Source: Salinibacterium sp. SWN248 (GTDB taxonomy: Bacteria > Actinomycetota > Actinomycetes > Actinomycetales > Microbacteriaceae). Taken from it: DNA of 64,000 nucleotides. The position numbers were made by a program, and so were the translations under genes. The stretch spans positions 434,001 through 498,000 of the forward strand of contig NZ_JADYWW010000001.1 of NCBI RefSeq assembly GCF_015864575.1. Reading direction: 5' to 3'. The notes beneath the pieces are model-generated. The model made no database searches. It saw nothing but the letters and a program-made list of their open reading frames with translations, and was not told the DNA's origin. Positions 42,949-62,271 of this stretch are shown here, piece after piece. Within the stretch, counting starts at the first letter, position 1. Every line of letters starts with the position of its first letter.

Positions 42949-43805
42949 GCGCTCATGTTAGCGAACACCGTCTCCTCTGACAGCCGTTTGGTGATGATGG
43001 CGATCGCGTCGGGATTCTGTTCGACGAGGACCACGCGACGCTTGAGGGCTTGGGCGACGGCACCGGTTGTGCCGCTTCCGGCGAAGAAATCGAGCACCCA
43101 ATCGCCGGGCTGGCTGGATGCCTGAACGATGCGTCGCAGTATGCCTTCCGGCTTCTGCGTGGCGTAGCCCGTTTTCTCTTTACCGGTAGGGGACACGATG
43201 GTGTGCCACCAGACATCCGTCGGTAGTTTGCCGCGGGCTGCCTTTTCTGGTGTCACAAGACCGGGCGCCATGTAGGGCTCGCGGTCGACTTCTTCGTTAT
43301 TGAAGTAGTAGTTCTTCGGGTTCTTTACATAGACAAGGATCGTGTCGTGCTTCGAGGGCCACTTCTTGGTGGCGCGGGCGCCATAGTCGTAGGCCCAGAT
43401 GATCTCGTTGAGGAAGCTCTCGCGCCCAAAGAGAGCGTCGAGAGCGACTTTGGCGTAGTGCACTTCGCGGTAGTCGAGGTGGAGGTAGAGGGTGCCGCGG
43501 TCGTCGAGCAGGCGCCATGCCTCCTGCAACCGTGGCTCTAAGAACTCCCAATAATCGGCGAACGTGTCGTCGTAGGAATACAACACTCCCTTAATCGTGT
43601 CGTAACTGTTGCCTCCGAAGCCCACGCGCGTACCTTCGGTCGAGCGTTGAGTGGTTAAGGCTTGACGGCGCTGCGTCCGCCCAGTGTTGAACGGGGGATC
43701 GATGTAGATCAGCCGGAAGCTTTCGTCAGGCAAAGTGCTGATCACGGGCAGGTTATCGCCGTGCACAACAAGGTCGGGTCCATCGGAGGTCCAAGGCGGC
43801 TGCAT
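42945..43805 (-). CDS. Site-specific DNA methyltransferase, beta class (N4/N6)
   Basis: 286 residues. The catalytic motif DPPF (residues 36-39) precedes the SAM-binding motif FAGSGTTG (near 241-248), which is the order of the beta class of amino-methyltransferases. Between them lie YLHLDYREVHYAK and YATQKPEGILRRI, also typical. It methylates an exocyclic amine of adenine or cytosine in a specific DNA sequence that cannot be predicted. No restriction endonuclease or specificity subunit is nearby, so it is an orphan. It overlaps the HAD phosphatase gene. DNA methylation may serve epigenetic or replication control. Confidence 0.88.
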   Translation of the reverse strand: MQPPWTSDGPDLVVHGDNLPVISTLPDESFRLIYIDPPFNTGRTQRRQALTTQRSTEGTRVGFGGNSYDTIKGVLYSYDDTFADYWEFLEPRLQEAWRLLDDRGTLYLHLDYREVHYAKVALDALFGRESFLNEIIWAYDYGARATKKWPSKHDTILVYVKNPKNYYFNNEEVDREPYMAPGLVTPEKAARGKLPTDVWWHTIVSPTGKEKTGYATQKPEGILRRIVQASSQPGDWVLDFFAGSGTTGAVAQALKRRVVLVEQNPDAIAIITKRLSEETVFANMSA

Positions 43806-44037
43806 CCCTTGAGATTAACAGCCGGTGGCGCGCTCGGGTCACACCGGCACGAAGCACCCTATGAGGTCGCTAAGAATCAGAGCTCTAGCCCCAGTGCGGG
43901 GCGGCTTCGGCTGGTTAGGCTGTCCAAAACTTCGACCAACGGTTTATGGTTGGAGGAGATGCGCTCACCCGAAGGGCTATTCGTTGACGATGCGATGACC
44001 CGCAAAGTCAGGGATTTTGACTCGGGGGAGAGAAATA

Positions 44038-47000
44038 GTGCGGCACAACAGCAGCAACGTGGAGCGCACGCAGCGTAGTGCTCGAAGCGCGTTCATGCGT
44101 GGCGTCGCATCTGTCGTCGCCTTCGGTCTTCTCGTGGCCGGACTGACTGTCATGCCGTCATCGCCCGCCGAAGCTGCCGTCGTGCAGTGGGGAACCAACG
44201 CCGGTACGTCGCCGAGCTACCAAACCACCGTCAACGGTGACTTCCTCATGGCCGGTAACGGCGTTCTCGCCTGTAACCGACCGCTCTACTCGGCGGCGCA
44301 AATTGGCACGTGTATCGACCTACACTCGGCATCGGGCGGAAACGGCAATACGGCCAACGACAACTTCTACCTCGAAAACTCGAACACGGTAGCCGGCTTC
44401 ACCACCAACTCGAGCTCGGCAAACATCACCATCCCCGCGGGCGCCGGCGTCAAGAAAGCCTTCCTGAGCTGGAGCGCCAACACCGGTGCCTACACGGGGA
44501 TCACGGAAAATGCGTGTGCGAGCCCGAACGCGACGCGCGGCACCGCTCTTATGCCTGCCGGTTCGGCAACCGGTTATCGCACCGCGCCCGCCAAACTCAA
44601 GGTGGGCACTGGCGCCGTCACTACCGTGGCGCCGACGACACTGCTGGAAGACCCGGTCGGCACGCCCTCGTCGATTTATTACAGCGCAAGCGCTGACGTC
44701 ACCACAGCTTTCGCTGGAGCGGTCACGGGAACCCCGCTCACGGTATCCGCTGGTGACCTGTGGGCACCGCAGGGTGCTGGTTGCTACGCCGGCTGGACTC
44801 TGACGGTCGTCTACGACTACGGCATTTACATTCCGAGCCAACCGCTGTCGCAGCCGCACCGCATCATCTTCTACGAAGGTCACGTTCGCATGACCGCCGC
44901 AGAGGCGCCGCTGACGGTTGCTTTCAACGGTTTCAGCGCGATTGCCACCGGAACTCGCGCTGGATTCTCGCTCTACGAGGGTGACCGCATCATCCAGGGC
45001 GACATCGCTGAGTATTCGCGCGGCAACGGCGGCTACACCCAGATAGCGAACAGCGCGGGCAACAACAACAACATCGGAATCGGTCGAGGAGAGGGCTCTG
45101 TTCGCTACACGGCACCCACCGATATTGGCCCCTTCACTAACCAGAGTGTGGATGTCGCGACCGTCAACCTAGCCAACGTGCAGTCCGGCGACACTTCCGT
45201 CAACCTCCGCATGAGCACGAGTGGCGACTCGTACCTGCTGCAAAACGCGATCCTGTCCGTGCCCAGCGCCGGAATCAATATCTCCAAGAGCTATGACGGA
45301 ACGCTCGACCAGCAATCGCGCACGGCAACAGAACCGGCAACCTTCACGATCACCGTGACCAACTCAGGCGTCGGGGTTCTGCAGAACATTGTCGTCGCAG
45401 ACGACCAGACCAACTGTGCACGCACATTGACCGGCGTGACGCTTGCCCCGCTTGAGTCGTATACGTACACGTGTGTTGCGAATGGTCCAACGACCGCCAG
45501 CTACGACTCGACTGCCTCAGTGACGGCGAGCACTGTGGTGGGAAATAGTCCGGCGACAGGCAGCGACTCCACTCGCGTTCTGCTTTCCTCTCTCTCGCTC
45601 GCCAAGACGAGTGCGCTCGCTGGTGGAGCAACCGGTCGCGCCGGCGACACCCTGAACTACACGTTCACCATCAAGAACAACGGTGACTCGCCCCTTACCG
45701 GAGTAGCGGTCACTGACCCGCTGCCCGGGCTTTCCGCCATCGCCTACTCCTGGCCGACAGGAACCGCTGGCGCCCTCGCCGCTGGTGCCTCCGCGACGGG
45801 AACGGCAACGTACACGCTGACGCAGGCAGATGTCGATGCCGGTTCGATCGCGAACACGGCGAGCGCCACCGGCACGGATGCCGACGGCGGTATCAAGCCT
45901 GTCGCGACGGCCAACCGCACCACGCCCATCCCGGTGAATGCTGTTCTCGAAACCAAGAAGACGGCCGCCTATGCCGGTGCCGGAGTCGGCAATGTCGGCG
46001 ACGTCGTGAACTATTCGTTCTCCGTAAAAAACACGGGTAACGTCACGCTCACCTCGGTCACCCTGACCGACCCTCTCACCGGGCTGTCCGCGATCGCGGT
46101 CACCTGGCCGGGAACCGCGGGTCGTCTCGCACCGGGTCAGACCGCCACAGGAACCGCGACGTATACGGTGAAGCAGGCGGACGTTAACACCGGAAAGATC
46201 GTGAACCAAGCGACGTCGGCTGGCCGCACCCCCAAGAACGTCGCTGTCACGGGCCTGAGCAACGAGGTCACGCTGGCTACCGCGCCTGCAGCTCCCGGGC
46301 TCACCACCACGAAGTCGGGAACAGTAGCCAATCCCAAGGGCGTTGGCAGCGTCGTCACCTATACCTTCAGCGCCAAGAACACCGGAAACGTGACGCTCAC
46401 CGGTGTCGCCATTGCCGACCCGCTCGTCGGTCTCTCCGCTCTGACCTACTCGTGGCCGGGAACCGCCGGAACTCTGGCTCCGGGCCAGACCGTGACCGCC
46501 ACCGCGACGTACACCGTGAAGCAGTCCGATGTTGATGCTGGATTGGTGCGCAACACCGCCACCAGCTCGGGAACATCACCCAGCGGCACCGCCGTTACTG
46601 CGGCATCCCCTCGCGTTGATGTTGCGCTGCAAACTCGCACTCCCGCTGTTTCGCTGACGAAGACGGGTGCGCTCGCGGGCGGTTCCACCGCTGGCAGCAC
46701 CGTGAACTACTCCTTCGTTCTGACGAACTCGGGCAACGTGACGCTGACCAATGCGGGCATCACCGACCCGCTCTCGGGCCTCTCTTCGATCACGTACGGC
46801 ACGTGGCCGGGCACCGCCGGCACTCTCGTGCCCGGTCAGTCCGTCACGGCAACCGCGACCTACACCGTGAAGCAATCGGATGTCGATGCCGGTGCGGTCG
46901 TGAACAGTGCGACGGCGAAGGCCACACCTCCGACCGGTGCTGACGTGACGCGGACGACTCCCGCGACGGTTCCGATCACGGCTGACGCCAAGATAGTTGT

Positions 47001-50000
47001 CACGAAGTCGGGCGCGTACACGACAGGATCCGGCGCTGTCGGCTCGGTTGTGACCTACACCTTCAGCGTGAAGAATGACGGAAACGTCACCCTCAGCCAG
47101 GTGGCTTTGGCCGACCCGCTCTCGGGACTCAGCCCCATCGCCGTGACCTGGCCCGGAGCATCCGGAGTATTGGCTCCCGGTCAGACGGCTACGGGAACCG
47201 CGACGTACACGGTGAAGCAATCCGACGTGGATGCGGGTTCGGTTAAGAACACGGCAACGGCTACGGCGAAGACTCCCACCGGCGGCGCGGTGACGCAGGC
47301 CTCCACGCAGTCTGTAGTGCCCACGGTCGCACCGACTCGACTCATCACGACCACGAAGTCGGCAACGATTGCCGGCGGCGCAACGGGCAAGGTCGGCGAC
47401 GTCATCAGCTACGCGTTCAGCGCGAAGAACGACGGTAACGTCACACTCTCCGGTGTCACGATTGCTGACCCGCACGCTGGCCTCTCGGCGCTGACCTACA
47501 CGTGGCCCGGCGCCACTGGCGTGCTCGCACCCGGCCAGACCGTCACCGCAGTTGCGACTTACACCATCAAGCAATCCGATGTGGATGCCGGCTCGGTCAA
47601 GAACATTGCCACCGGTAGTGGAACTCACGCCGGCACTACCGTGAGCAACCCCTCGTCTGAAATCACCGTTCCGACCGTCGCTGCAAACCCGGTCGTCACC
47701 ACGCTCAAATCGGGGGCGCTCGCCGCCGGTTCGACCGGCCGCGCTGGCGACACCGTGAACTTCTCGATCAAGCTCACCAACTCGGGCAACGTCACCCTGA
47801 CCTCTGTCTCGGCCACCGACACGCTCCCCGGTCTCTCGGCGCTCACCTACGGCACGTGGCCCTCGGGCACGACTGGCACACTCGCGCCGGGCCAGTCGGT
47901 TACGGCGACAGCGACCTACACCCTGAAGCAGTCTGACGTGGATGCCGGCTCGGTCTCGAATACCGCGACTGGTTCGGGAACGCCGCCCACCGGTGCCGCA
48001 GTGACCAGCACGAGCCCCGCCACGGTTCCGATCACCGCTGGCCCCGCACTGACCGTCTCGAAGTCGGGAGCGGTCACGACCGGAAACGGTTCTGTCGGCG
48101 ACACCGTCACCTTCTCCTTCGTGGTGCGCAACACCGGTAACGTCACCGCCACTGGCGTTGGCATCTCCGACAGCCTCGTCGACCTCTCCGCCGTGACCTT
48201 CGGCACCTGGCCGAGCGGCACAGCAGGCACGCTTACTCCCAACACTCAGGTGACCGCTACGGCCACCTATCTGATCAAGCAGGCTGACGTTAACGCTGGC
48301 TCTGTGAAGAACACGGCCACGGCATCCGGAAGCACGCCGTCGGGCGGAACCGTGACGGCAACGTCCCCGCAGGCGGTCGTTCCGACGGTGGCGTCATCGC
48401 CCGCGATCGATACGCAGAAGACGGCAAGCGTTGCCGGAACCGGCGCTGTCGGCGATGTCATCACGTACACCTTCACCGCCAAGAACACCGGTAACGTCAC
48501 CCTCACGGGCGTCTCGATTGCCGACCCGCTCACGGGACTTTCGGCTCTGACGTACGGCGCCTGGCCCGGTGGAGTTGCCGGAACGCTTGCGCCCAACGCG
48601 CAGGTCACGGCCACGGCGACCTACACAATCGCTCAGTCGGATGTCGACGCGGGTTCTGTCAAGAACACGGCGACCTCGCAGGGCTCGTTCGGGGCGACGA
48701 CGGTCACTGACCCGTCACCTCAGATCACGACGCCCACGGTCGCCTCGGTTCGCACCATATCGCTGACCAAGAACGCGGTCCTCGCGGCGGGCGCAACCGG
48801 CGTCGCTGGCGATGCCGTCAACTACAGCTTCGTCGTGCGCAACACCGGTAACGTCACGCTCACGGGCGTCGGCATCACCGATCCATTGCCCGACCTTTCG
48901 GCCGTCACGTTCGGCACCTGGCCGAGCGGAACAGCCGGTCGTCTCCTGCCGCAAACACAGGTCACGGCTACTGCCACCTACATTTTGAAGCAGTCGGATA
49001 TTGACGCCGGCTCAGTCGCGAACACTGCGACGACCCGCGGCACCCCTCCCACCGGTGCCGTCGTGTCGGCGACCGCTCCCGCTACCGTTGTCGTCGCCTC
49101 GAATGGTGCCCTTGCGGTAACGAAGACGGGTGCCGTCACGTCGGGTACCGGCGGCGTCGGTAGCACGATGACCTTCTCGTTCTCCATCACCAACCCCGGA
49201 AACGTCACGATGACGGGTGTCGCGATTGTGGATTCCCTCGTGGGCCTTTCCGCGCCGGTATACACCTGGCCGACCGCGACGGCCGGGCGACTTGCTCCGG
49301 GCCAGACGGCGACCGCGACCGCGACGTATACGGTCAAGCAGGCCGATGTAAACGCGGGCTCGGTAGCGAACACGGCAACAGTGTCGGGCAAGACTCCGAC
49401 GAACGCAACGGTCACTTCTGCGCCGTCGACCGCGAACGTGCCCACGATCACGGGCGCCCCTGAGCTCACCACCACAAAGTCGGCGAACGTCACTTCGGGA
49501 GCCAAAGTCGGCGACTCGATCACGTACTCCATCGCGATCTCGAACACGGGTAACCAGACCATCACCGGCGTCGCTCTGACGGACTCGCTCGTCGGTCTCT
49601 CCACTCCTGTTGTCACGTGGCCGGGTGTGGCGGGAACCCTGGCTCCAGGCCAGACGGCTACAGCCCTCGCAAGCTACACCGTGAAGCAGTCGGATGTTGA
49701 TGCTGGCTCGATCGCCAACACGGCGTCAGCAGCGGGAACAGCTCCGGGCGCGACTCCCGTCAGCGATGACTCCAACCCCGTGGTCACGACCACCGTTACT
49801 CCGGCGCCGACTCTCTCGCTCGTGAAGTCGGGCACGCTGCCGGCTGGTTCCACATCCGTTGCGGGCGAAGTAGTGACCTACAGCTTCGTCATCCGCAACA
49901 CCGGCAACGTCACGATCACGGGTGCCGCGGTCAGCGACCCACTCTCTGGTCTTTCGTCGATCACGTATGGCACCTGGCCGTCGGGCACCACCGGAACGTT

Positions 50001-53000
50001 GGCGCCGAACACTCAAGTGACGGCCACCGCTACCTACACGGTGAAGCAGACGGATGTCGACGCGGGTTCGATCGCGAACACCGCGACCGCAACGGGAACG
50101 GGCGTGAGCGGCGGGGCTGCTGCTCCGGCGACGAGCAACGCGACAGTTCCTCTCGCTACGACAGCCAAACTCACGGTGTCGAAGACGGGCGCTACGGTAG
50201 CCGGGGCGAACAAGCTCGGCGACACCGTCACTTTCTCGTTCGTCGTCAAGAACACCGGAAACGTCACGCTCTCGAGCGTCGGCATCACCGACACTCTTCC
50301 GGATCTCTCGGCTGTCACCTTCGGCACCTGGCCGGGCGGCACGACCGGAGTTCTCGCTCCCAACGCGCAGGTCACCGCTACCGCGACGTACACAATCAAG
50401 CAGTCTGACGTGAACGCTGGCTCTGTGAAGAACACGGCTACGGCATCCGGAACGCCGCCATCGGGCCCCGTTGCTACGGCATCCTCGACCCAGGCTGTCG
50501 TGCCGACTGTTGCCGCTTCGCCTGCGCTCGTCACGACCAAGAGCGCTGTTGTCGGCGGCACGGGAACCGGCGCGATCGGTGACACCGTCACCTACACCTT
50601 CACAGCGCGCAACTCCGGTAACGTCACGCTCACCGGCGTCACGCTGACCGACCCGTTGAGCGGGCTCTCGAACCCCACCTACGCCTGGTCGGGTGGCGTT
50701 AGCGGCCAGCTCAACCCGAACGGAACCGTCACCGGAACCGCCACCTACACAATCACGCAGGCGGATGTTGACGCCGGCTCGGTCAAGAACATTGCGACCG
50801 CAACGGGTACGCCTCCCACGGGCGCTGCCGTGACTGCTCCGTCGCCGCAGCTCGTCACACCGACGATCGCTTCAGCACCGAAGATCGGTGTGACGAAGTC
50901 GGGCGCTCTCGCGCCGGGCGCGCAGGGCGTTGCGGGTGACGTTGTCACGTGGAGCCTCACGCTCACCAACTCGGGCAATGTGACGCTCACCTCGGTAGCG
51001 GTCGCTGACTCGCTTCCCGGCGTCTCCGCCGTGACCTATGGCACGTGGCCCTCGACGGCCGGAACGTTGGCTCCGGGCCAGAGCGTCTCGGCCACGGCCA
51101 CGTACGTTCTCACGCAGGCCGACATCGACGCCGGCGCTGTGTCGAATACGGCAAACGGTGCGGGAACCCCGCCGCGCGGATCACCCGCAACGGCCACTGC
51201 TCCCTCAACCCTTCCGCTCGCATCGAACTCCAGCATCACGCTCGATAAGACCGCAGCCATTGTTTCTCCCGGCACGGGCGTGGTGGGTGACACCATCCGC
51301 TACACGTTCACCGCCGAGAACACGGGTAACGTAACCCTGACCAACGTGATCATCGCCGACCCGCGTCCCGGACTCAGCGCACTCACCTACGGAACCTGGA
51401 CCAGCGGCACTGTTGGCCGCCTCGCTCCGGGTCAGACGATTACGGCAACGGCTGACTACGTCATCCGCCAGGCCGACCAGAACGCCGGCGTTGTGAACAA
51501 CACGGCGTCCGTTTCGGGCAAGCCTCCCGCAGGCGCGAACGCCACGGCGTCGTCTGCTGCGGTAGCTACTCCGACCGCAACGCGCGTTCCCGGCATCCTC
51601 ACCACCAAGACCTCGAGCGTGGCCGGAACCGGTGCCGTTGGCGATGTCATTACGTACACGATCACCGTTCGCAATACCGGAAACACGACTCTCACGTCGG
51701 TATCGGCGAGCGACCCGCTCTCGGGACTCAGCACGCTCACCTACGGCGCTTGGCCTGGCGGCGAGACGGGAACGCTGCAGCCCAACACCCAGGTTGTCGC
51801 CACCGCGAAGTACACGATCAAGCAGTCCGATGTGAACACGGGTTCGGTCACGAACACGGCAACAGGTCAGGGCACGTCGCCCTCCGCCGGCGTGATCACT
51901 GACCCCTCCGATGAAGTCATCACTCCGACCGTTGCGACGAACCCCGTGGCGACCTTCGCGAAGTCTGGCGCGCTCGCCCCCGGTTCCGTTGGTGTTTCCG
52001 GCGACGTCATCACCTACACCTTAACCACGAAGAACACCGGAAACGTCACACTCACGGGTGTCTCCGTCGCCGACCCGCTGGCTGATCTCGGCGCCATTTC
52101 GTACACGTGGCCAGGTGCCACAGGTGTGCTCACCCCGGGTCAAACCGTCACCGCTACCGCCAACTACACGGTGAAGCAGTCGGATGTGGATGCTGGCTCT
52201 GTCAGTAACGCCGCGACGGCCACCGTCACTCCGCCTTCCGGCACGCCCTTCAGCGAGACGGACTCAGAGACGGTCTCGATCACGCCCGCTCCCGGAATCT
52301 CGGTCAGCAAGGTTGCCTCCGTCGGTGGAACCGGTGCAGAAAACGACGTCATCACCTACACGATGACGATTCGCAACACGGGTAACCAGACACTCACCGT
52401 CGTGACGCTCATCGACAACCTGCCTGGTTTGAGCGCTCCGACCTTCGTCTGGCCGGGAGCGGACAATGAGCTTGCGCCAGGCCAGACAGCCACGGCGACC
52501 GCAACGTACACGATCGATCAAGACGACCTCAACGCCGGCGAAGTAACGAACACCGCCAGCGTGACCGCTCAAACTCCTGGTGGCGGCCCCGAGGTGGCGG
52601 CAAGCTCTGGCGCCGTCGTTGTCGCGACCGGTGCCCAGCGTCCCGAGCTCACGACAACGAAGACCGCCAGTGTCGTGCCGAGCCCGGCCGCTGAAGGCAC
52701 CACGATCACTTACTCCTTCCTGGTGGAGAACACGGGAAACGTGACCATCGAGAACCTCGTTCTCAACGACCCGCTCCTGGGCGCAGCAACACCGACGTTG
52801 TCCGCGACATCACTCGACCCGGGTGAATCCGCCACAGCAACGGCGACCTACACGATCACTCAGGCCGATGTCGACGCCGGTTCGGTGACGAACACGGCGA
52901 AGGCTGCCGGTGCCACCACAGCAGATCCCGCCGTGCCGGTTGAAAGCCCGGTCTCTTCGGTGACGACTCCGACCGCGCCCGCCGCCCCCGGTATCTCGGT

Positions 53001-56000
53001 CACGAAAACGGGCACCGCCGCTCAAGACGCCGGCGACCTGATCGACTGGAGCTTCACTGTTACCAACACCGGAAACGTCACCCTCAGTGGCGTGACCCTC
53101 AACGATGCTCTCGCCGGCGTGACGCCCGTCTTTGGAACCTTCCCCAGCGGCATCTCTGGTCAGCTGAACCCCGGCGATAGCGTCTTGGCCACCGCTGACG
53201 ACAACGTCGTGACGCAGGCGGATGTCGACGCGGGCTCCGTCGTGAACACCGTGACCGCATCCGGTACTCCGTCGCGTGGTGCCGTCGCCAATTCGACCAC
53301 CGCCGCGACCGTGCCGCTGGCGCCGGACGCTGGCATCACGATCGTCAAGTCAGAAGACGCCACTCCCGCTGATCGCGGTCTCGGTGATCCCGTGAATTTC
53401 ACGTTCACCGTGACCAACACGGGTAACGTCACGTTGAGTTCGATCAGCATCATCGACGAACTCGATGGTGTCTCGGCGATCTCGTATGACTGGACAGGTA
53501 ACCCCTCCCAGACTCTCGCTCCCAATGCTGTGCTGACCGCGACCGCGACGTACGCCCTCACGCAGGAAGACATCGACCGCGGCTTCGTCGATAACGACTC
53601 AAGCGTGCTCGCTTCGACTCCTGCTGGAGCGATCCTCGATGAGGATTCCACCACCGTTACGGTCACCACCGAAGCGTCCGCCCCGGTTCTCGTGACGACC
53701 AAGGACGCCGTGCTCAACGGCACGGGTGTCGTTGGCGACACGATCAGCTACACGATCACGATGCTGAACGACGGAAACGTCACCGTGACGGATGCCGCAA
53801 TCACCGACTCTCTCGCAGGGCTGAGCGCTCTCGTCTACGGCGAGTGGCTTTCTGGTGTGGACGGCGAGCTGGCTCCCGGCGAGTCCGTCTCGGCCACGGC
53901 GAACTACACGATCACGCAGGCGGATGTCGACGCTGGCTCGGTCAGCAACGTCGCGACCGGCGATGCCGAGTCCGCTCGCGATGGCGCAGCGGTGACCGAT
54001 GATTCGCCTGCCGCGGTCACGCCTCTCGTTGCTCAGGCCCCCGCCATTTCGGCGACAAAGAGTGGCGCACTCGAGTCGGGTGCTGAGGGCGAAGCTAACG
54101 ACACCGTCGAGTTCTCGTTCACCATCACGAACGATGGAAACGTCACGCTGACCGGCGTGACCTTGGCTGACCCGCTCGCTGATCTCTCGACAATCACGTA
54201 CACGTGGCCCACCGCGACCGATGGTGTGCTTGCTCCTGGCGCCACGGCAACCGCCGTCGCGACCTACGAACTCAAGCAGAGCGATGTGGACTCCGGTTCA
54301 GTAGTCAACCTCGCGACGCCGTCGGGTATCGACCCCGGTGCCGTCACGGTTGATGGCTCCGAAGTGGTGGCAACCGTTGTCGTCGAGCCCGATGCGAGCC
54401 TCAGTGCGAGCAAGTCGGGCGAGCTCCGCGCTGGCGGAATCGGTCAAGTCGGCGACATCGTCGACTACGTGCTGATCGCGACGAACACCGGAAACGTGAC
54501 ACTCCACGACGGAGAACTGCTCGACCCGCTGCCCGGAATCACACCTCCGGTCATCACGTGGCCGACCGCAGCTAACCCTGGCGTTCTCAAGCCGGGCGAG
54601 TCCGTCACGGGAACCGCGTCCTACGCGCTCACTCAAGACGACGTTGACCGCGGATTCCGGGACAACACGGCGCGCGTTCAAGCCCTCACGCCGAATAACG
54701 TCGTTGTTCCTGCGATCACGAACACCGTCATCATTCCGACCGTTCGCCCCGCTCCTCTCCTGACCGTTGACAAGTCAGCGGTCGTTGCTGACGCTGGCGA
54801 ACTCGGCGATGAGATCGCGTACTCCTTCACGATCACTAACGACGGAAACATCACCGTCTCAGGTATCACCTTGGCCGACCCGCTGCCCGGCCTCGCCGAT
54901 CTCACCGTGAACTGGCCTGCCGCCAACACCACGCAGTCACTCGCACCTGGTGAGAGCGTTGGAGCAACCGCAACCTACGAAATCACTCAGGGCGACGTCA
55001 ACAACGGTGACGTCACCAACACGGCAACCGCGAGTGGAACCGACGCGCAGGGCACAGCGGTCACCGGCGACTCGCCTGAGGTCGTCACCGAGATCGTCGC
55101 CGCCGCTCCCTCGCTCAGCGCGACCAAGAGCGCGGCCCTTGCTGCGGGAGCAACGGGAGTCGCGGGCGACACCGTGGAATACAGCTTCACCGTCACCAAC
55201 AACGGAAACGTCTCCCTGACATCCGTCAACCTCATCGATCAGCTGCCGGGACTCACTGGTGTGACGTTCGGCACGTGGCCGACGGCGACTGACGGCCTGC
55301 TCAATCCAGGCGACGATGTCTCCGCAACCGCAACGTACACACTGCTGCAGAGCGATATCGATGCTGGTTCTCTCGCGAACAGCGTCAACGCGATGGGCGT
55401 TCCGCCGACCGGATCTGCTGTGACACAGCCGGCCTCCGCAACGCTTCCGCTCACCCCAGCCCCCGACTTCACGATCGTGAAGACCGGAGACCTCGGCGCG
55501 CAGCTTGGCGAAGTCGGCGACGTTGTTGACTACTCCTTCAGTATTACCAACTCGGGCAACGTGACGCTCTCGGGTGTTGTGCTCATCGACTCCATGCCTG
55601 GTGTCAGCACTCCGGTCATCGTGTGGCCAGGGGCTGAACGAGTTCTTGCTCCCGGCGAAACAGCCACAGCCACTGCCGAATACACGATCACTCAAGACGA
55701 TGTCGACGCGGGTTCTGTAACCAACATCGCTGAAGCCTTGGGTGCGACCCCCGACGGTAGCGAGTACTTCGAATTCTCCGATCCTGCGGTGAACCCCACC
55801 ATTGAGCGCACGGCATCAGTCACGATCGACAAGGTCGGTACAACTCCGGATGGCGCGGCTCTTGGCGACCTCGTTCACTACAGCTTCACCGTGGAGAACA
55901 CCGGAAACACGACCCTCACCGATGTTGCGATTGACGACCCGCTCGTCGGACTGTCGACCATCGTCTACTCCTGGCCCGGTGCCGCAGGCGAGCTCGCTCC

Positions 56001-59000
56001 TTCTGAGACAGCAACGGCGACCGCAACGTACGCGGTCACGCAGGCTGACATCGACCGCGGCTACGTGCGCAACTCGGCGGATGTCGACGCAACGTCACCG
56101 CTGGGTGCCGTTGACGATTCAGTCGGCCCCATCGATGTGCCGACCGTCATTGCTGCTGCAGCGATTGAAACCACCAAGAACGGTGCGCTCGAGGCTGGCT
56201 CAACTGGATTCGCCGGCGACATCATCGACTATTCGTTTACCGTGCGAAACACTGGAAACGTCACGCTCACGGGCGTCACGCTGACCGACCCGCTCACGGG
56301 TCTCAGCGCGCTGACCTACACGTGGCCGACCGCAACGGACGGCATGCTCGAGCCCGGCCAGAGTGCAACCGCGGTTGCCACCTACGAGCTCACGCAGGCT
56401 GATGTTGATGCGGGCAAGGTTGACAACACGGTGACGGCCGAGGGAACAACTCCTGCGGCAGGCACCGTCGACGACACTGCCGATGAGACAGTGACGATCA
56501 CGCCAGCACCCGTGCTCACGCCCTTCAAGTCGGGAACGATTCTGAATGGTGGCGTCGGTGCTGTGGGCGACACCGTGCAGTACACGCTCACCGTGACCAA
56601 CGACGGAAACGTCACCCTCTATGAGGGCCAGTTGCTCGACCCGTTGCCCGGACTCTCGGTTCCGGTTATCACGTGGCCAGATAGCGAAAAGCCTGGTGAG
56701 ATTCCGGTTGGCGAATCTGTCATCGGTATTGCGACGTATGTAATCACGCAGGCAGACGTCGACCTCGGCTATATCCCCAACACGGCAGACATGTCGGCGA
56801 AGACCCCGCAGGGTGTTGTCATAGTCGAAGCCTCGAACGAAGTTATTGTGCCGATGGTGTTGCCGGCTCCGAACATCACGGTCGCGAAGTCTGGTGCGCC
56901 TCAGGGCTCGGCTGACCTCGGCGACACAATCGACTACTCGTTCGAGATTCTCAACTCGGGTAACGTCACGCTCGATTCCGTCACACTGACGGACCCACTG
57001 CCGAGCCTCTCGGCGATCACGATCACGTGGCCAACTCCGACAAGCCCTGGCGTGCTCGCTCCCGGTGAGATCGCCACCGCCACGGCGGACTACGAGATCA
57101 CTCAGGAAGACGTGGATGCTGGCGCTGTTCTGAACATCGCGACCGCTGATGGCGTTGACCCCAACGGCACAGACGTCACCGATGACTCTGAAGCGAGCAC
57201 CGTTCCGACCGAAACGATCCGCGCTCTCGTGGAACTCACCAAGAGCGGTGTTCTCGCTGACCCGGCTCGCGCCGATGAGGGCGACACCGTGAACTGGTCG
57301 TTCGAGCTCAGCAACACAGGCAACGTCACGCTGACCGGTGTGGAGATCGTCGATTCCCTTGCGGGCATCTCGGCTCTGACCTACACGTGGCCCGGCGCCG
57401 ACGGCACGCTCAAGGTGGGCGAATCGGTAACGGCAACGGCGACATCCGCGCTCACTCAGGAGCAGATCGATGCCGGCACCGTAGAGAACGATGCTGTCGG
57501 TTCAGGCACCCCTCCGCGCGGCGACGCTGTGACTGACCCCGCGACGGCAGCAGTCGTGCTCGCCTCGCAGGCCAGCATGGCGGTGACCAAGGACGGCACT
57601 GTTGATGGTGCCGGCAACGCGGGCGACACGATTGACTACGACTTCAGCATCACCAACACCGGTAACGTGACGCTCACGCTCGTCAATCTGGTTGACGCGC
57701 TCGTCGGTGTCAGTAGCCCCGTCTTTACGTGGCCCGGGACTGCAGGAGAGCTGCAACCAGGTGAGACGGTTACGGCCATTGCTGATTACACGATCACGCA
57801 GGATGACGTCGACCGGGGCAGCGTCTCCAACGTGGCGACCGCCAGCGGAAAGCCGCCCATCGGTGACACGATCACGGTGAGCACGACGGTCACCGAAACG
57901 ACCGTCGCTCCGGCCGCTGCTTCGCTGCTGCTGACCAAGTCATCGAGCACGGGTGCCAGCGCCGGTGTCAACGACATCATCACGTACACGTTCGAGGTTG
58001 AGAACACCGGAAACGTCACGGTCGATGAGATCGTGATCTCCGACCCGCTGCCAGGTCTCAGCACTCCCGTGGTCAACTGGCCCGGAGCCAACGGTGTACT
58101 CGCCCCGGGCACGACGGCAACGGCAACGGCAACCTACGCGATCACACAGGCCGACGTCGATGCCGGCGCGGTGGATAACACTGCTGTCGCCAATGGCACT
58201 TCGCCGACCGACGTTGCGGTGCCGAGCAACACGGCTCTCGAGTCGACGCCGACGGATGCTGCTGCCCCCGACATCCTCGTCACGAAGAGTGCTGCTCTGG
58301 CTCCGGGTTCGACCGGCTTCGCGGGGGACCTCGTCGAGTACGATTTCTCGCTGACGAACACCGGCAACCAGACCCTGACGTCGGTGTCGCTGGCCGATCC
58401 GCTTCCGGGCTTGTCTGCTCTCGTTTACTCCTGGCCCACCGCCACGGCCGGAACGCTGGCCCCCGGTGCTGTCGTTACGGCTACCGCAACGCACGAACTC
58501 ACTCAGGCCGACATCGACTCGGGCTCGGTGGCCAACGTCGTGACCGGTAGCGCAACGCCGCCATCCGGGGTTGCATTCACCGAACAGGCTCCGGCTGCCG
58601 TGGCGATCGCCGCGAACGGCGAGCTAGAGGCTAAAAAGTGGGGAGTATTGCGTGCTGGGGGAATCGGCCAGGTTGGCGACTGGGTCGACTACCGCCTCGA
58701 AGCCACCAACACCGGTAACGTCACGCTGATCGATGGCGAGCTGCGCGATCCGCTTCCGGGGCTGAGCGTTCCCGTCATCACGTGGCCGAACCCAACACAG
58801 CCCGGCGTTCTGTTGCCGGGAGAGACCGTGCTCGGTGAAGCATCGGTTCAGCTCACGCAGGAAGACGTCGACCGCGGCTACATCTCCAACATCGCCGATA
58901 TTGGCGCTACTGACCCGAATGATGATGACGTTCCGGCGACCACCAACGAGGTCATCGTCTACACGGTTCAGCCGCAGCCGAGCATGACGGTCGTGAAATC

Positions 59001-62000
59001 GGGCGAGATCGCCGTGACGGGCGAGAACGGCGTCGGCGACACCGTTGACTTCGAGTTCGAAGTTCGCAACACCGGAAATGTCACGATCGGTTCGATCGTT
59101 GTCACCGATCTGCTGCCGGGGATGACTACCCCCGACGTGCAGTGGCCAGCAGCGAACACGACGGAGATCCTCGCTCCCAACGAGACGGTAACCGCGACGG
59201 CTAGCTACGACATCCGTCAATCGGATGTCGACCGCGGATTCGTAGAAAACACGGCGAGCGCTACGGCAGTTCCGGTGCGCGGCGATCCGATCGCGGCCAC
59301 CTCGAACACGGTCGAAGTTCCCACGGAGGCTCCGAACGTTGTGGTTTCTGTCACCAACACCGGCGCGCTGACGAACCCGGGCCCGGCTGTAGAGGGCGAC
59401 ACTGTCACCTGGAACTACAGCTTCACGAGCACGAGTAACGTGACGCTCTCGAGCGTTGAGCTGAGCGACTTTATTGGCTCGCTGCCCGCAGGCGATTACA
59501 CCTGGCCCGGCGTCGCGGGCGTTCTCGCTCCCGGCGACACGGTCACGGCAGTTCGCGTGCAAACGCTGACTCAGGCCGATATCGACTCGGGTGCGGTGTC
59601 GAGCGTTGTCACCGGTGAGGGAACTCCTCCGGTGGGCGCTGCGGCAAGCGCCACTGCTCCGGCGACCGTCACTCTCGCGGCTGATGGCCTGTTGCAGGTA
59701 ACGAAGTCGAGCGAGCTGGCTGTTGCGGGCGAGAACGGTCCTGGCGACACGATCGATTACACGATCGTGGTTACCAACATCGGAAACGTCACGCTGCGCA
59801 CGGTGACCATCACCGACAGCATCGACAACGTTTCGATCAACTCGATCGTCTGGCCCGCCAACAGCGGCGTGCTGGCTCCCGGTGAGTCGGCGACGGCCAG
59901 TGCGACCTACGTTCTCGAACAGGATGACGTTGACCGCGGTTATGTCGACAACGCGGCATCCACCCGTGGCGTCACGCCGGGCGGCGACCCTGTCACGGCG
60001 ACCTCGAACGTTGACCGGGAACTGACTGCAGTTTCTGACCCCAGCATCACAGCCGAGAAGTCGGGCGTAATGACCTCGGGTTCGGGTGAAGTCGGTTCTG
60101 AAATCACGTACAGCTTCATCGTGAAGAACACCGGAAACGTGACCCTGCGCCTCGTAGGAGTTCTCGACCCACTGATCGATGTTGTTCCCTCCGACCTCAC
60201 CTTCCCGTCGGCCACCGGTATTCTTGGTCCGAACGAGCAGGCTGTTGGCTCCGTCGTGTACACCGTCACGCAGGCAGACGTCGATAACGGCACCGTGGAG
60301 AACACGGCGACCGCGATCGGTACTGCGCCCGACGGCAGCGAAGTGCAGGGCGTCTCTAACACGGTCTTCAACCCGACCGATGAGGCTGCACCATCCATCG
60401 TCACTTCCCACACCGCGGCTCTCGCTACGGGAGCAACGGGGGTGCTCGGCGACGGCATGGACTACACGTTCACCATCACGAATGACGGAAACGTCACGCT
60501 CGACGGCGTGACGCTCTCGAACACGATTCCGGGCCTCACCGGCTTCGTCTACACCTGGCCAGACCCGGCCGCTCCTGGCGTTCTCGCACCGGGCGAAAGT
60601 GTCACCGTCACGGCGACCCGTCTTGTTGATCAGGCGGATGTCGACGCTGGTGAAGTACGCAACGTCGCGACCGGCGAGGGTAACTCTCCTGCCGCAACCG
60701 CCGTTGATGCTGATTCTGCGGTGACTATCGTTCCGCTCATCGAAGCGCTGTCGAGCGTTGACATTGCCAAGGCTGGCGAACCTCGCGACACGGTGAACCC
60801 CGTCGTCGTTGGTTCGTGGATCGACTACACCTTCACCGTCGAGAACGCGGGCGAAACCACACTGAGTGGTGTCACTGTTGCTGACCCGAAGGTCGGAACG
60901 ACTGCGGTCGTGTACGGCACGTGGCCGGCAGCAGCCGGCGTATTGGCTCCGGGGGAGTCGGTTACGGCAACCGCGAGCTACCAGGTCACGCAGGCTGAGT
61001 TCGATGCCGGTTCGGCATCCAACACTGCCAACGTGACATCGACGAACCCGGCGGGCGACACCGTGATCGACACCTCCAACACTGTTGTGGTGCCGACCGC
61101 AGCTGGCGACCCTGACATCCAAATCACGAAGACTCAGGTACTGGCCGCTGGCGCGACCGGCAACGCGGGAGACACCGTGGAGTTCACCTTCGAGGTCACC
61201 AACACCGGTGATGTCACGCTGAACGGTGTCACGATTGCTGACGACCAGATCGATCTCAGCACGCTGACGATCACCTGGCCGGGTGCTCCGGGCGTTCTCG
61301 CTCCGGGCCAGTCGGCCACGGCGACCGCAACGTACGTGCTCACTCAGGATGACGTGGATGCTGGTTCGATCAGCTCCGACGCCTCCACGGCGGGAACGCC
61401 GGCAGTGGGCGCTGTGGTGACGGATTCAGCCACCGGCTCAACGCCGATTGTCGAAGACCCGTCGATGACCATCACGAAGACGAGTTCGTTCGCGACCTTC
61501 GCTCAGCAGGGCGCGACCGTGAACTACGTCATCAAGGTCGTCAACACCGGTAACGTCACGCTCACCGCCGTCGTAATCAGTGATCCCAAGCTGGGCGTCT
61601 CCGCGCTCACCTACAACTGGCCGGGTACTCCGGGCGAGTTGGCTCCGGGGGAGTCGGTTACTGCAACGGCAACCTATGTGATCACTCAGGATGATGTGGA
61701 TGTCGAACAGACCACGAACGTGGCCACGGTCGACGCGAACGCGCCCTCGGGTGCCATCGCGCCGGAAGAAGCAACCGACGTTCTCGCGATCCCGAACATG
61801 CCGAACATCGCACTGACGATTTCGGGTGTGCTCGGTGCGGGCCAGCAGGGCTACCCCGGCGATGTTGTGACGTTCACCTACGTGGCGACGAACACGGGAA
61901 CGCTGCCGCTGACGAATGTCACGATCGCCGACCCGCGGTCGGGACTGTCGGCCATGCGCTATGGCACTTGGCCGGGAGCGATTGGTTCGCTCGCACCGGG

Positions 62001-62271
62001 CGAATCGATCACCGCAACGGCAACCTACGTCATCCGTGAAAGCGATGCCGGAACGACGCTGTACGAAACGGCAACGGTCACGAGCACCGAGATCAACTCG
62101 GGAGACCCCGTGGTCGCAACCGCACAGACAAGTTTGCAGCTACCTACCAAGGCACTCTCTTACACTGGGTCAGACCCCCGAGGAACCCTCGCAACCGGGT
62201 TGGGCACACTGCTCGCCGGCCTCGCTCTGATCCTGCTCGCCCGCAGAAGACAACGACAGGAAAATTCATGA
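44038..62271 (+). CDS. Giant LSYTG-anchored surface protein with about 48 DUF11-like modules
   Basis: A 6,077-residue exported protein starting at GTG 44038, chosen because GGGGGAG lies 6-12 nt upstream; a TTG seven codons earlier is the alternative. The signal peptide spans residues 1-47 (basic start, hydrophobic GVASVVAFGLLVAGL, cleavage after AEA). Residues 48-410 form a unique head domain containing all the N-terminal cysteines. About 48 immunoglobulin-like DUF11/DUF7507-type modules of 117 residues follow. The consensus has VTYTF, NTGNVTL, DPL, GLS, W-P, APGQ, ATATYT and D-V-D-AGSV-N-TA segments. The C-terminus is LSYTG (near 6040), a membrane helix and RRRQRQENS, a sortase-type sorting signal. 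It is probably a wall-anchored adhesin. No sortase gene is in the window. It overlaps the next gene as ATGA. Confidence 0.88.
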   Translation: MRHNSSNVERTQRSARSAFMRGVASVVAFGLLVAGLTVMPSSPAEAAVVQWGTNAGTSPSYQTTVNGDFLMAGNGVLACNRPLYSAAQIGTCIDLHSASGGNGNTANDNFYLENSNTVAGFTTNSSSANITIPAGAGVKKAFLSWSANTGAYTGITENACASPNATRGTALMPAGSATGYRTAPAKLKVGTGAVTTVAPTTLLEDPVGTPSSIYYSASADVTTAFAGAVTGTPLTVSAGDLWAPQGAGCYAGWTLTVVYDYGIYIPSQPLSQPHRIIFYEGHVRMTAAEAPLTVAFNGFSAIATGTRAGFSLYEGDRIIQGDIAEYSRGNGGYTQIANSAGNNNNIGIGRGEGSVRYTAPTDIGPFTNQSVDVATVNLANVQSGDTSVNLRMSTSGDSYLLQNAILSVPSAGINISKSYDGTLDQQSRTATEPATFTITVTNSGVGVLQNIVVADDQTNCARTLTGVTLAPLESYTYTCVANGPTTASYDSTASVTASTVVGNSPATGSDSTRVLLSSLSLAKTSALAGGATGRAGDTLNYTFTIKNNGDSPLTGVAVTDPLPGLSAIAYSWPTGTAGALAAGASATGTATYTLTQADVDAGSIANTASATGTDADGGIKPVATANRTTPIPVNAVLETKKTAAYAGAGVGNVGDVVNYSFSVKNTGNVTLTSVTLTDPLTGLSAIAVTWPGTAGRLAPGQTATGTATYTVKQADVNTGKIVNQATSAGRTPKNVAVTGLSNEVTLATAPAAPGLTTTKSGTVANPKGVGSVVTYTFSAKNTGNVTLTGVAIADPLVGLSALTYSWPGTAGTLAPGQTVTATATYTVKQSDVDAGLVRNTATSSGTSPSGTAVTAASPRVDVALQTRTPAVSLTKTGALAGGSTAGSTVNYSFVLTNSGNVTLTNAGITDPLSGLSSITYGTWPGTAGTLVPGQSVTATATYTVKQSDVDAGAVVNSATAKATPPTGADVTRTTPATVPITADAKIVVTKSGAYTTGSGAVGSVVTYTFSVKNDGNVTLSQVALADPLSGLSPIAVTWPGASGVLAPGQTATGTATYTVKQSDVDAGSVKNTATATAKTPTGGAVTQASTQSVVPTVAPTRLITTTKSATIAGGATGKVGDVISYAFSAKNDGNVTLSGVTIADPHAGLSALTYTWPGATGVLAPGQTVTAVATYTIKQSDVDAGSVKNIATGSGTHAGTTVSNPSSEITVPTVAANPVVTTLKSGALAAGSTGRAGDTVNFSIKLTNSGNVTLTSVSATDTLPGLSALTYGTWPSGTTGTLAPGQSVTATATYTLKQSDVDAGSVSNTATGSGTPPTGAAVTSTSPATVPITAGPALTVSKSGAVTTGNGSVGDTVTFSFVVRNTGNVTATGVGISDSLVDLSAVTFGTWPSGTAGTLTPNTQVTATATYLIKQADVNAGSVKNTATASGSTPSGGTVTATSPQAVVPTVASSPAIDTQKTASVAGTGAVGDVITYTFTAKNTGNVTLTGVSIADPLTGLSALTYGAWPGGVAGTLAPNAQVTATATYTIAQSDVDAGSVKNTATSQGSFGATTVTDPSPQITTPTVASVRTISLTKNAVLAAGATGVAGDAVNYSFVVRNTGNVTLTGVGITDPLPDLSAVTFGTWPSGTAGRLLPQTQVTATATYILKQSDIDAGSVANTATTRGTPPTGAVVSATAPATVVVASNGALAVTKTGAVTSGTGGVGSTMTFSFSITNPGNVTMTGVAIVDSLVGLSAPVYTWPTATAGRLAPGQTATATATYTVKQADVNAGSVANTATVSGKTPTNATVTSAPSTANVPTITGAPELTTTKSANVTSGAKVGDSITYSIAISNTGNQTITGVALTDSLVGLSTPVVTWPGVAGTLAPGQTATALASYTVKQSDVDAGSIANTASAAGTAPGATPVSDDSNPVVTTTVTPAPTLSLVKSGTLPAGSTSVAGEVVTYSFVIRNTGNVTITGAAVSDPLSGLSSITYGTWPSGTTGTLAPNTQVTATATYTVKQTDVDAGSIANTATATGTGVSGGAAAPATSNATVPLATTAKLTVSKTGATVAGANKLGDTVTFSFVVKNTGNVTLSSVGITDTLPDLSAVTFGTWPGGTTGVLAPNAQVTATATYTIKQSDVNAGSVKNTATASGTPPSGPVATASSTQAVVPTVAASPALVTTKSAVVGGTGTGAIGDTVTYTFTARNSGNVTLTGVTLTDPLSGLSNPTYAWSGGVSGQLNPNGTVTGTATYTITQADVDAGSVKNIATATGTPPTGAAVTAPSPQLVTPTIASAPKIGVTKSGALAPGAQGVAGDVVTWSLTLTNSGNVTLTSVAVADSLPGVSAVTYGTWPSTAGTLAPGQSVSATATYVLTQADIDAGAVSNTANGAGTPPRGSPATATAPSTLPLASNSSITLDKTAAIVSPGTGVVGDTIRYTFTAENTGNVTLTNVIIADPRPGLSALTYGTWTSGTVGRLAPGQTITATADYVIRQADQNAGVVNNTASVSGKPPAGANATASSAAVATPTATRVPGILTTKTSSVAGTGAVGDVITYTITVRNTGNTTLTSVSASDPLSGLSTLTYGAWPGGETGTLQPNTQVVATAKYTIKQSDVNTGSVTNTATGQGTSPSAGVITDPSDEVITPTVATNPVATFAKSGALAPGSVGVSGDVITYTLTTKNTGNVTLTGVSVADPLADLGAISYTWPGATGVLTPGQTVTATANYTVKQSDVDAGSVSNAATATVTPPSGTPFSETDSETVSITPAPGISVSKVASVGGTGAENDVITYTMTIRNTGNQTLTVVTLIDNLPGLSAPTFVWPGADNELAPGQTATATATYTIDQDDLNAGEVTNTASVTAQTPGGGPEVAASSGAVVVATGAQRPELTTTKTASVVPSPAAEGTTITYSFLVENTGNVTIENLVLNDPLLGAATPTLSATSLDPGESATATATYTITQADVDAGSVTNTAKAAGATTADPAVPVESPVSSVTTPTAPAAPGISVTKTGTAAQDAGDLIDWSFTVTNTGNVTLSGVTLNDALAGVTPVFGTFPSGISGQLNPGDSVLATADDNVVTQADVDAGSVVNTVTASGTPSRGAVANSTTAATVPLAPDAGITIVKSEDATPADRGLGDPVNFTFTVTNTGNVTLSSISIIDELDGVSAISYDWTGNPSQTLAPNAVLTATATYALTQEDIDRGFVDNDSSVLASTPAGAILDEDSTTVTVTTEASAPVLVTTKDAVLNGTGVVGDTISYTITMLNDGNVTVTDAAITDSLAGLSALVYGEWLSGVDGELAPGESVSATANYTITQADVDAGSVSNVATGDAESARDGAAVTDDSPAAVTPLVAQAPAISATKSGALESGAEGEANDTVEFSFTITNDGNVTLTGVTLADPLADLSTITYTWPTATDGVLAPGATATAVATYELKQSDVDSGSVVNLATPSGIDPGAVTVDGSEVVATVVVEPDASLSASKSGELRAGGIGQVGDIVDYVLIATNTGNVTLHDGELLDPLPGITPPVITWPTAANPGVLKPGESVTGTASYALTQDDVDRGFRDNTARVQALTPNNVVVPAITNTVIIPTVRPAPLLTVDKSAVVADAGELGDEIAYSFTITNDGNITVSGITLADPLPGLADLTVNWPAANTTQSLAPGESVGATATYEITQGDVNNGDVTNTATASGTDAQGTAVTGDSPEVVTEIVAAAPSLSATKSAALAAGATGVAGDTVEYSFTVTNNGNVSLTSVNLIDQLPGLTGVTFGTWPTATDGLLNPGDDVSATATYTLLQSDIDAGSLANSVNAMGVPPTGSAVTQPASATLPLTPAPDFTIVKTGDLGAQLGEVGDVVDYSFSITNSGNVTLSGVVLIDSMPGVSTPVIVWPGAERVLAPGETATATAEYTITQDDVDAGSVTNIAEALGATPDGSEYFEFSDPAVNPTIERTASVTIDKVGTTPDGAALGDLVHYSFTVENTGNTTLTDVAIDDPLVGLSTIVYSWPGAAGELAPSETATATATYAVTQADIDRGYVRNSADVDATSPLGAVDDSVGPIDVPTVIAAAAIETTKNGALEAGSTGFAGDIIDYSFTVRNTGNVTLTGVTLTDPLTGLSALTYTWPTATDGMLEPGQSATAVATYELTQADVDAGKVDNTVTAEGTTPAAGTVDDTADETVTITPAPVLTPFKSGTILNGGVGAVGDTVQYTLTVTNDGNVTLYEGQLLDPLPGLSVPVITWPDSEKPGEIPVGESVIGIATYVITQADVDLGYIPNTADMSAKTPQGVVIVEASNEVIVPMVLPAPNITVAKSGAPQGSADLGDTIDYSFEILNSGNVTLDSVTLTDPLPSLSAITITWPTPTSPGVLAPGEIATATADYEITQEDVDAGAVLNIATADGVDPNGTDVTDDSEASTVPTETIRALVELTKSGVLADPARADEGDTVNWSFELSNTGNVTLTGVEIVDSLAGISALTYTWPGADGTLKVGESVTATATSALTQEQIDAGTVENDAVGSGTPPRGDAVTDPATAAVVLASQASMAVTKDGTVDGAGNAGDTIDYDFSITNTGNVTLTLVNLVDALVGVSSPVFTWPGTAGELQPGETVTAIADYTITQDDVDRGSVSNVATASGKPPIGDTITVSTTVTETTVAPAAASLLLTKSSSTGASAGVNDIITYTFEVENTGNVTVDEIVISDPLPGLSTPVVNWPGANGVLAPGTTATATATYAITQADVDAGAVDNTAVANGTSPTDVAVPSNTALESTPTDAAAPDILVTKSAALAPGSTGFAGDLVEYDFSLTNTGNQTLTSVSLADPLPGLSALVYSWPTATAGTLAPGAVVTATATHELTQADIDSGSVANVVTGSATPPSGVAFTEQAPAAVAIAANGELEAKKWGVLRAGGIGQVGDWVDYRLEATNTGNVTLIDGELRDPLPGLSVPVITWPNPTQPGVLLPGETVLGEASVQLTQEDVDRGYISNIADIGATDPNDDDVPATTNEVIVYTVQPQPSMTVVKSGEIAVTGENGVGDTVDFEFEVRNTGNVTIGSIVVTDLLPGMTTPDVQWPAANTTEILAPNETVTATASYDIRQSDVDRGFVENTASATAVPVRGDPIAATSNTVEVPTEAPNVVVSVTNTGALTNPGPAVEGDTVTWNYSFTSTSNVTLSSVELSDFIGSLPAGDYTWPGVAGVLAPGDTVTAVRVQTLTQADIDSGAVSSVVTGEGTPPVGAAASATAPATVTLAADGLLQVTKSSELAVAGENGPGDTIDYTIVVTNIGNVTLRTVTITDSIDNVSINSIVWPANSGVLAPGESATASATYVLEQDDVDRGYVDNAASTRGVTPGGDPVTATSNVDRELTAVSDPSITAEKSGVMTSGSGEVGSEITYSFIVKNTGNVTLRLVGVLDPLIDVVPSDLTFPSATGILGPNEQAVGSVVYTVTQADVDNGTVENTATAIGTAPDGSEVQGVSNTVFNPTDEAAPSIVTSHTAALATGATGVLGDGMDYTFTITNDGNVTLDGVTLSNTIPGLTGFVYTWPDPAAPGVLAPGESVTVTATRLVDQADVDAGEVRNVATGEGNSPAATAVDADSAVTIVPLIEALSSVDIAKAGEPRDTVNPVVVGSWIDYTFTVENAGETTLSGVTVADPKVGTTAVVYGTWPAAAGVLAPGESVTATASYQVTQAEFDAGSASNTANVTSTNPAGDTVIDTSNTVVVPTAAGDPDIQITKTQVLAAGATGNAGDTVEFTFEVTNTGDVTLNGVTIADDQIDLSTLTITWPGAPGVLAPGQSATATATYVLTQDDVDAGSISSDASTAGTPAVGAVVTDSATGSTPIVEDPSMTITKTSSFATFAQQGATVNYVIKVVNTGNVTLTAVVISDPKLGVSALTYNWPGTPGELAPGESVTATATYVITQDDVDVEQTTNVATVDANAPSGAIAPEEATDVLAIPNMPNIALTISGVLGAGQQGYPGDVVTFTYVATNTGTLPLTNVTIADPRSGLSAMRYGTWPGAIGSLAPGESITATATYVIRESDAGTTLYETATVTSTEINSGDPVVATAQTSLQLPTKALSYTGSDPRGTLATGLGTLLAGLALILLARRRQRQENS
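45271..62145 (+). repeat. 48-module tandem array with a three-module higher-order period
   Basis: Modules of about 352 bp repeat from 45271 to 62145. Modules 2-48 fall in a strict A-B-C order. Every third boundary carries the same linker, GTPPtGaaV...ATVPL, near 46.92, 47.98, 49.04, 51.17, 53.26, 55.40, 57.51, 58.55 and 59.62 kb, so the unit is about 1.06 kb. Type B modules carry a GALAxGatGxAGD start, type A an xTTTKsaxvaGtGaVGD start, and type C an LxVxKsGa start. Cysteine occurs only in the first module. Confidence 0.85.

Follow-up and report, generated by a model that had tools for sequence, protein, structure and literature searches.

A three-module super-repeat of conserved length in the stalk of a giant, probably fibrillar surface protein of Salinibacterium

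The giant surface protein gene and its surroundings

The window, a stretch of 64,000 nucleotides from Salinibacterium sp. SWN248 (Microbacteriaceae), contains a gene for a giant surface protein on the plus strand (positions 44017–62271), which is one open frame encoding 6084 amino acids from a TTG codon. The 6,077 residues given in the initial annotation correspond to an alternative GTG start at 44038. A signal peptide (MRGVASVV...AEA; 44095–44175), recognised by eye and conserved in the orthologs, is followed by an N-terminal tip domain of approximately 360 residues (44188–45273), a long array of modules, and an LSYTG motif with a hydrophobic stretch and a basic tail (62155–62271), which we take to be a sortase-type wall anchor. 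No Pfam wall-anchor domain was matched in the protein in the Pfam profile scan, and neither of the two sortase genes in the genome adjoins the gene. The gene is flanked by a DNA methylase and HAD hydrolase pair on the minus strand (42175–43805) and by a SpoU methylase gene (62793–63431). Antisense open frames of up to 832 amino acids run through the array on the minus strand (58624–61122) and are most likely a by-product of the G+C-rich coding sequence. Two more long DUF11 proteins (2421 and at least 2428 amino acids) are encoded about 60–70 kb upstream in the same genome (L083), and were rejected as a length control because their domain type differs.

The tip domain was predicted with AlphaFold2 to be all-beta (pLDDT 88.4, pTM 0.91). 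It matched no Pfam or NCBIfam family and no plasmid, and its closest named record, from Salinibacterium amurskyense, was 94% identical. Comparison of the model with PDB folds gave only weak matches (TM ≤0.26 among the best 50 matches listed), which did not identify the domain.

When the protein was cut at the Lys-containing starts, 48 modules of approximately 117 residues were obtained (45274–62127), the number given in the initial annotation. In the profile scan, the array matched DUF7507 (CLIPPER_2) first and DUF11 second, and CLIPPER_2 (DUF7507, PF24346) exceeded the cut-off in 21 and 26 stretches of the two scanned parts of the protein. The AlphaFold2 model of one triplet (modules 8–10) consisted of three beta-sandwiches, with a pLDDT of 94.4 and a pTM of only 0.73. 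Its structural neighbours in Foldseek and VIA were chains whose domains are of the Ig-like, cadherin, integrin, or adhesin kind, such as PrgB, antigen I/II, and RTX adhesin repeats. The whole-chain TM reached approximately 0.37 among the matches listed, and low values are expected because the chains are bent. A PDB sequence search with the triplet profile gave no match, and the DUF11 structure 9IFR was absent among the best 50 structural matches listed, which is uninformative on kinship. An Ig-like bead is approximately 4 nm long, and 48 of them would form a stalk of nearly 190 nm. Taken together, the protein is likely a fibrillar adhesin with an isopeptide-locked stalk, the predicted cross-links of which are described below.

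The charge of the stalk changes along its length (45592–62127), with a mean of -2.0 in modules 2–24 and -11.2 in modules 25–48; modules up to about 19 are near neutral and later modules strongly acidic. A step near modules 20–24 was also found in L027, L023, G136, G047, and G241, and a later one in G143 and G245.

Register, number, and age of the modules

The array is a three-module higher-order repeat. The mean identity between modules at every multiple of three (offsets 3, 6, and so on to 24) exceeded that at the neighbouring offsets, with a period-3 contrast of 4.0 points (z 9.2) that was reached in none of 1000 shuffles of module order, in a test covering five periods per array. Mean identities at offsets 1, 2, 4, and 5 were 44.9, 44.2, 43.7, and 43.6%, and by module cutting, neighbours were 44.2% identical vs 47.7% for modules three apart. 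For 34 of the 48 modules, the nearest relative was three modules away or a multiple thereof, where one third would be expected (binomial p 1.2e-7), and for only one did it lie next door. The three-module unit proposed in the initial annotation was therefore confirmed by the identity matrix, and neighbours were not each other's closest relatives. Its more specific expectation, that each module would be closest to those exactly three or six away, held for only 14 of 48 modules.

The register does not extend over the whole array. Module 1 (45274–45591) is divergent and outside the A-B-C order. Modules 2–25 (45592–54045) form eight triplets with period 3, near neutral in charge up to about module 19, and modules 26–43 (54046–60396), which are acidic, form six triplets arranged as three six-module blocks. 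In modules 2–43, the nearest relative was in phase for 33 of 42, whereas in the wall-side segment (modules 44–48; 60397–62127), this was true of only one of five, and the mean identities to the three phases were almost equal (41.0, 41.5, and 41.2%). The strict order claimed from module 2 onward thus applies as far as module 43, with 14 triplets rather than about 16. Within modules 26–43, identity was 49.1% at offset 6, 44.5% at offset 3, and 42.4% at offset 9. Modules 27 (54400–54759), 33 (56515–56874), and 39 (58624–58983) were close relatives (27–39, 65–66%; 27–33, 54%; 33–39, 52%), so the period of six suspected from these three modules is real in this segment. The low-resolution module tree required 53 changes for five groups (the three classes, and the odd and even modules of the period-2 arrays described below), where shuffling gave 155.6 on average and the minimum would be 4; the three clean clades that had been expected were not recovered. 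At the DNA level, where a self-comparison had been suggested as a further check, the array had no self-match of at least 150 bp at 80% identity or more, and a single 29-bp row was all that Tandem Repeats Finder listed when run with periods up to 500.

Within the genus, the tip domain was matched in 10 of 27 genomes, counting that of the window; the 17 genomes with no match include some fragmented drafts. All 10 genes, eight intact and two frame-broken, have 48 modules. In the two frame-broken genes (L025 and L026), 6 + 43 and 1 + 48 module matches were found with one module split in each, giving 48 apiece; these genes are either decaying or mis-sequenced. The protein is dispensable, because 17 of the 27 genomes had no tip-domain match and two of the genes were frame-broken. 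The other seven intact genes aligned to that of the window with no indel of at least 10 residues inside the repeat, and among the eight, 2650 of 2688 between-genome best module matches were at the same index. Paralogous modules showed no greater similarity within a genome than between genomes, the excess being 0.08–0.2 points in three comparisons. As this excess is at most 0.2 points, there is no sign of ongoing module exchange in the genus, and ongoing gene conversion was rejected as an explanation. Recent tandem growth was also rejected, given the lack of DNA self-matches at the above threshold and of any gain or loss of modules in the genus.

In the family, 26 of 349 genomes matched the tip domain. 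Among the period-3 relatives in other genera, five arrays also have 48 modules (G136, G047, G143, G245, and G197), G241 has 47, with a Pro-rich spacer in place of the last module, and G074 has 36; the numbers found family-wide (also 47, 39, 36, 34, 29, and 9) show that the count is not invariant. G136 and G047 align to the window array without gaps, and the alignment of G143 or G245 to G000 takes compensating gaps at modules 14–25. Aligned with G245, the 12 modules missing from G074 fall into two runs of six; aligned with the window array, they form a single run of twelve, and with other partners they are scattered in shorter runs, so their location depends on the partner. Orthologous modules in different genera share only about 45–55% identity. 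The best-matching Salinibacterium index was in phase for 43 of 48 modules in G136, 39 of 48 in G047, 40 of 47 in G241, 35 of 48 in G143, 34 of 48 in G245, 35 of 48 in G197, 26 of 36 in G074, 24 of 29 in Lacisediminihabitans, and 23 of 34 in G160. The module count in this lineage is old and nearly frozen. Since the genus genomes all have 48 modules that are orthologous index by index, and the relatives mostly have 48, the array is old and is not growing. The initial suggestion of growth by triplet or six-module blocks is supported for an ancient process, by periods 3 and 6 and the 12-module difference between relatives, but not for an active one. Between genera, the excess similarity of paralogs was 0.9–1.9 points in phase and 0.5–1.4 points out of phase, and a few period-6 sets (26/32/38, 27/33/39, and 28/34) seem to have been homogenised within lineages.

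We tested 32 arrays bearing the same tip domain for a period (27 and 5 more, that of the window included); 18 showed period 3, among which eight are Salinibacterium orthologs and hence not independent. Six showed period 2 (G191, G282, G237, G347, G198, and G443), and eight showed none, three of these having only 8–12 modules tested. The first 34 modules of G160 had a weak period 3 (4 of 1000 shuffles), and G245, a period-3 array, also had a weak period-2 signal (10 of 1000). A 13-module piece from the far end of the G160 gene, which is frame-broken (L066, L082), showed period 2 (1 of 500 shuffles), with alternating modules of the Ser type described below. G443, from another family of the same order (L077, L078), encodes an 8199-residue frame with the same tip domain and approximately 61 module matches; it has period 2 without Ser-type modules, and its end piece shows no period. 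Among the period-2 arrays, G191 and G282 matched module for module (39 of 39), as did the 38 detected modules of G237 and G347, whose module 1 has diverged too far to be picked up with the profile. No register was shared between the window array and the period-2 or non-periodic arrays. The possibility that the odd modules of the period-2 arrays are plain A modules was rejected, as they only lean toward that class: 9, 9, 5, and 6 of 14 odd modules and 5, 5, 4, and 4 of 14 even modules were called A in G191, G282, G237, and G347, respectively. In the tip-domain tree, these four 39-module arrays grouped together (97/97) at a fork that also leads to period-3 sequences and is unresolved, and G198 was placed elsewhere on a long branch. 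The label of period 2 needs two changes on this tree, so this period may have arisen twice.

Class-specific columns and predicted cross-links

Class profiles built without the test lineage placed 173 of 192 modules correctly in segment 2–25, 105 of 144 in segment 26–43, and 9 of 39 in segment 44–48, and 25 of 28 modules of a fully held-out Lacisediminihabitans array fell in register; position-specific classes are kept across species, as in a super-repeat. In modules 2–25, the class-specific columns sit mainly at the two ends of the module, the first strand with the AB loop and the last strands with the linker. They were more frequent at these ends and linkers than elsewhere (19 of 44 vs 5 of 68, p 1e-5), although the regions were delimited only once the columns had been inspected, and adjacent columns are not independent. 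The bias persisted among variable columns only (19 of 37 vs 3 of 33, p 2e-4), in which ortholog identity was similar (0.41 vs 0.40) and entropy differed (2.40 vs 2.06), and among columns whose ortholog identity was intermediate (14 of 27 vs 5 of 38, p 1e-3). It is therefore not merely a result of slow evolution, because variable columns show it at equal ortholog identity. Judged by strand order in the AlphaFold2 triplet model and by ordinary Ig topology, most of these columns would lie at the end facing the neighbouring module. Of the 20 class columns of modules 2–25, 12 are also found in the set of 27 class columns from the period-2 arrays (hypergeometric p 1.4e-4, counted by hand), and common descent may be behind part of this overlap.

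The initial annotation read the triplets as three different surfaces alternating along the fibre. This is not the best reading: in modules 2–25, the class-specific columns concentrate at the ends and linkers, and none of the 23 middle-loop columns was class-specific. In modules 26–43, five of the 23 were, and the end and linker bias was weaker (18 of 44 vs 15 of 68), so faces could still alternate in that segment. Because the class columns cluster at module ends and linkers, we read the alternation of the three classes as one of joints, which the column pattern favours over one of binding faces; for the array as a whole, alternating faces seem improbable.

DUF7507 modules are predicted in PMC12617251 to form a Lys–Asn isopeptide bond aided by Asp (a K-D-N triad). 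We surveyed this triad in 961 usable modules of 1026, excluding module 1 and dropping 65 gapped rows. The acid was kept in all 863 modules that kept Lys, and in the 98 modules that had lost Lys, the acid was lost in 40 and Asn in 66. Among columns that were at least half conserved, Asp41 and Asn86 were those most correlated with Lys4. Counting against the triad, 80 modules have Lys and the acid but lack Asn. In the window protein, the predicted triad is kept in 43 of 47 modules (module 1 excluded), and most of the 48 modules are predicted to be locked by an internal Lys–Asn bond. The modules without a full triad are 41 (59344–59691; N-D-S for K-D-N), 44 (H-N-N), 46 (K-D-S), and 48 (I-D-E), and since the losses are confined to these four, they are non-periodic. 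Module 48 (61807–62127) lacks the full triad in all 13 intact 48-module arrays.

The relatives also contain a module type in which Ser replaces Asn, accompanied by Tyr24 (80 of 113) and Gln43 (63 of 113), both of which are almost absent from K-D-N modules. Ser-type modules of the four 39-module arrays occupied 49 of 52 odd positions from 13 to 37 and no even position from 12, and in G047 and G143, they occupied all six A positions at 26, 29, 32, 35, 38, and 41. The other period-3 arrays showed this pattern in part only; in Salinibacterium, the type was found at module 41 only, plus module 35 in two species. Where Lys is replaced by Asp, a Lys–Asn bond is impossible, and Ser-type modules probably lack the isopeptide bond. 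Some relatives, although not the window protein, have lost the predicted Lys-Asp-Asn cross-link site in every second or third module. Alternation of the known DUF11 and DUF7507 families was rejected as the source of the register, because single modules of the Asn and Ser types alike matched DUF7507 first (10 of 10; three from the window and seven from two relatives).

A proposed stalk with a repeating set of joints

We regard the protein as a wall-anchored fibrillar adhesin in which the N-terminal tip domain would be carried out on 48 Ig-like DUF7507 (CLIPPER_2) modules. The three classes would form three kinds of inter-module joint (A-B, B-C, and C-A), which would give the stalk a fixed length and a geometry that repeats every three modules and, locally, every six. 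The modules would have arisen by ancient duplication of triplets and six-module blocks, after which they would have diverged at the DNA level beyond recombination; the count would then be held at 48 because the copies are too diverged to recombine and because of selection on length or geometry. The fact that several related species keep the bead number suggests that the shape or stiffness of the fibre depends on module order. We hold this account of a fixed-length, sortase-anchored stalk with a super-repeat of joints, derived by ancient block duplication, with slightly better than even confidence, and favour the set of joints over mere history and over alternating binding faces.

The most serious competing explanation is that the A-B-C order is the functionless, fading footprint of ancient three- and six-module duplications, and that nothing but the present divergence of the copies, too great for recombination, keeps the count frozen. 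Such a history accounts for the nesting of period 6 inside period 3, for relatives differing by 12 modules, for DNA similarity too low for recombination, for the lineage-specific homogenisation of the 26/32/38, 27/33/39, and 28/34 sets between genera, and for the arrays with period 2 or no period. However, if the footprint were neutral, columns of equal variability would be expected to carry it to the same degree, whereas the columns of modules 2–25 are marked mainly at the ends and linkers, and the class calls persist between genera at only about 45–55% ortholog identity. We therefore consider history by itself possible but rather unlikely. Slightly less probable even than alternating faces is that adjacent modules are kept unlike to prevent mispairing during folding, with the alternation as a by-product: this principle, argued for Acinetobacter BAP in PMC4647330, fits the lower identity of neighbours than of modules three apart, but neighbours (44.9%) are no less alike than other out-of-phase pairs, and in the eight non-periodic arrays, offset 1 is at most 0.8 points under offset 2.

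The domain and the kind of adhesin are already known. The CLIPPER_2/CLIPPER (DUF7507/DUF11) adhesins (PMC12617251) share with the window protein the module family, the Ig-like fold, the K-D-N triad, and a stalk of tandem modules that joins an N-terminal domain to an anchor. The window protein differs from them in its A-B-C order inside a single family, number and register being conserved between species, and its relatives differ in losing the triad periodically; neither "Salinibacterium" nor "Microbacteriaceae" was found in the paper by word search, and "alternating" in one sentence only. The giant adhesin of Mobiluncus mulieris (PMC10619420) is likewise a giant LPxTG adhesin with a cross-linked Ig-like stalk, in which 51 Ig-like domains mix ester and isopeptide types; unlike that of the window array, its module number is not conserved (5040 vs 7651 amino acids), and the words "periodic", "pattern", and "alternat" were absent from that text. 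Acinetobacter BAP, too, is a giant adhesin of bacteria in which Ig-like modules fall into several classes, but its module make-up, organisation, and copy number vary between strains of one species (PMC4647330). The A-band super-repeats of titin, composed of Ig-like and FnIII beads and discussed as a molecular ruler (PMC10665226; on the role in length, see also PMC7427331 and PMC5648799), share with the array the Ig-like beads, the higher-order repeat, and position-specific conservation. Titin is eukaryotic and intracellular and mixes domain families; the likeness is taken as an analogy of layout only. No description of the register, the frozen count, or the periodic cross-link pattern was found in the PMC literature searched.

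By this analogy, the protein might be what a titin-style super-repeat looks like in bacteria and outside the cell: a fixed-length stalk in which module order programs repeating joints and, in the relatives, also a repeating pattern of modules with and without the cross-link, in every second module in one lineage and in every third in another; we put this forward tentatively, with somewhat less than even confidence. Repeat arrays of adhesins can vary in number and make-up even within a species, as in Acinetobacter BAP, whereas here, number and order have been kept over several genera while approximately half of the residues changed. If the proposal is correct, the shape and stretchiness of the fibre would be written in the order of its modules and could be re-tuned between lineages via the period. 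Arrays with the same tip domain and a period of three, two, or none constitute a natural experiment on module order in a cross-linked fibre.
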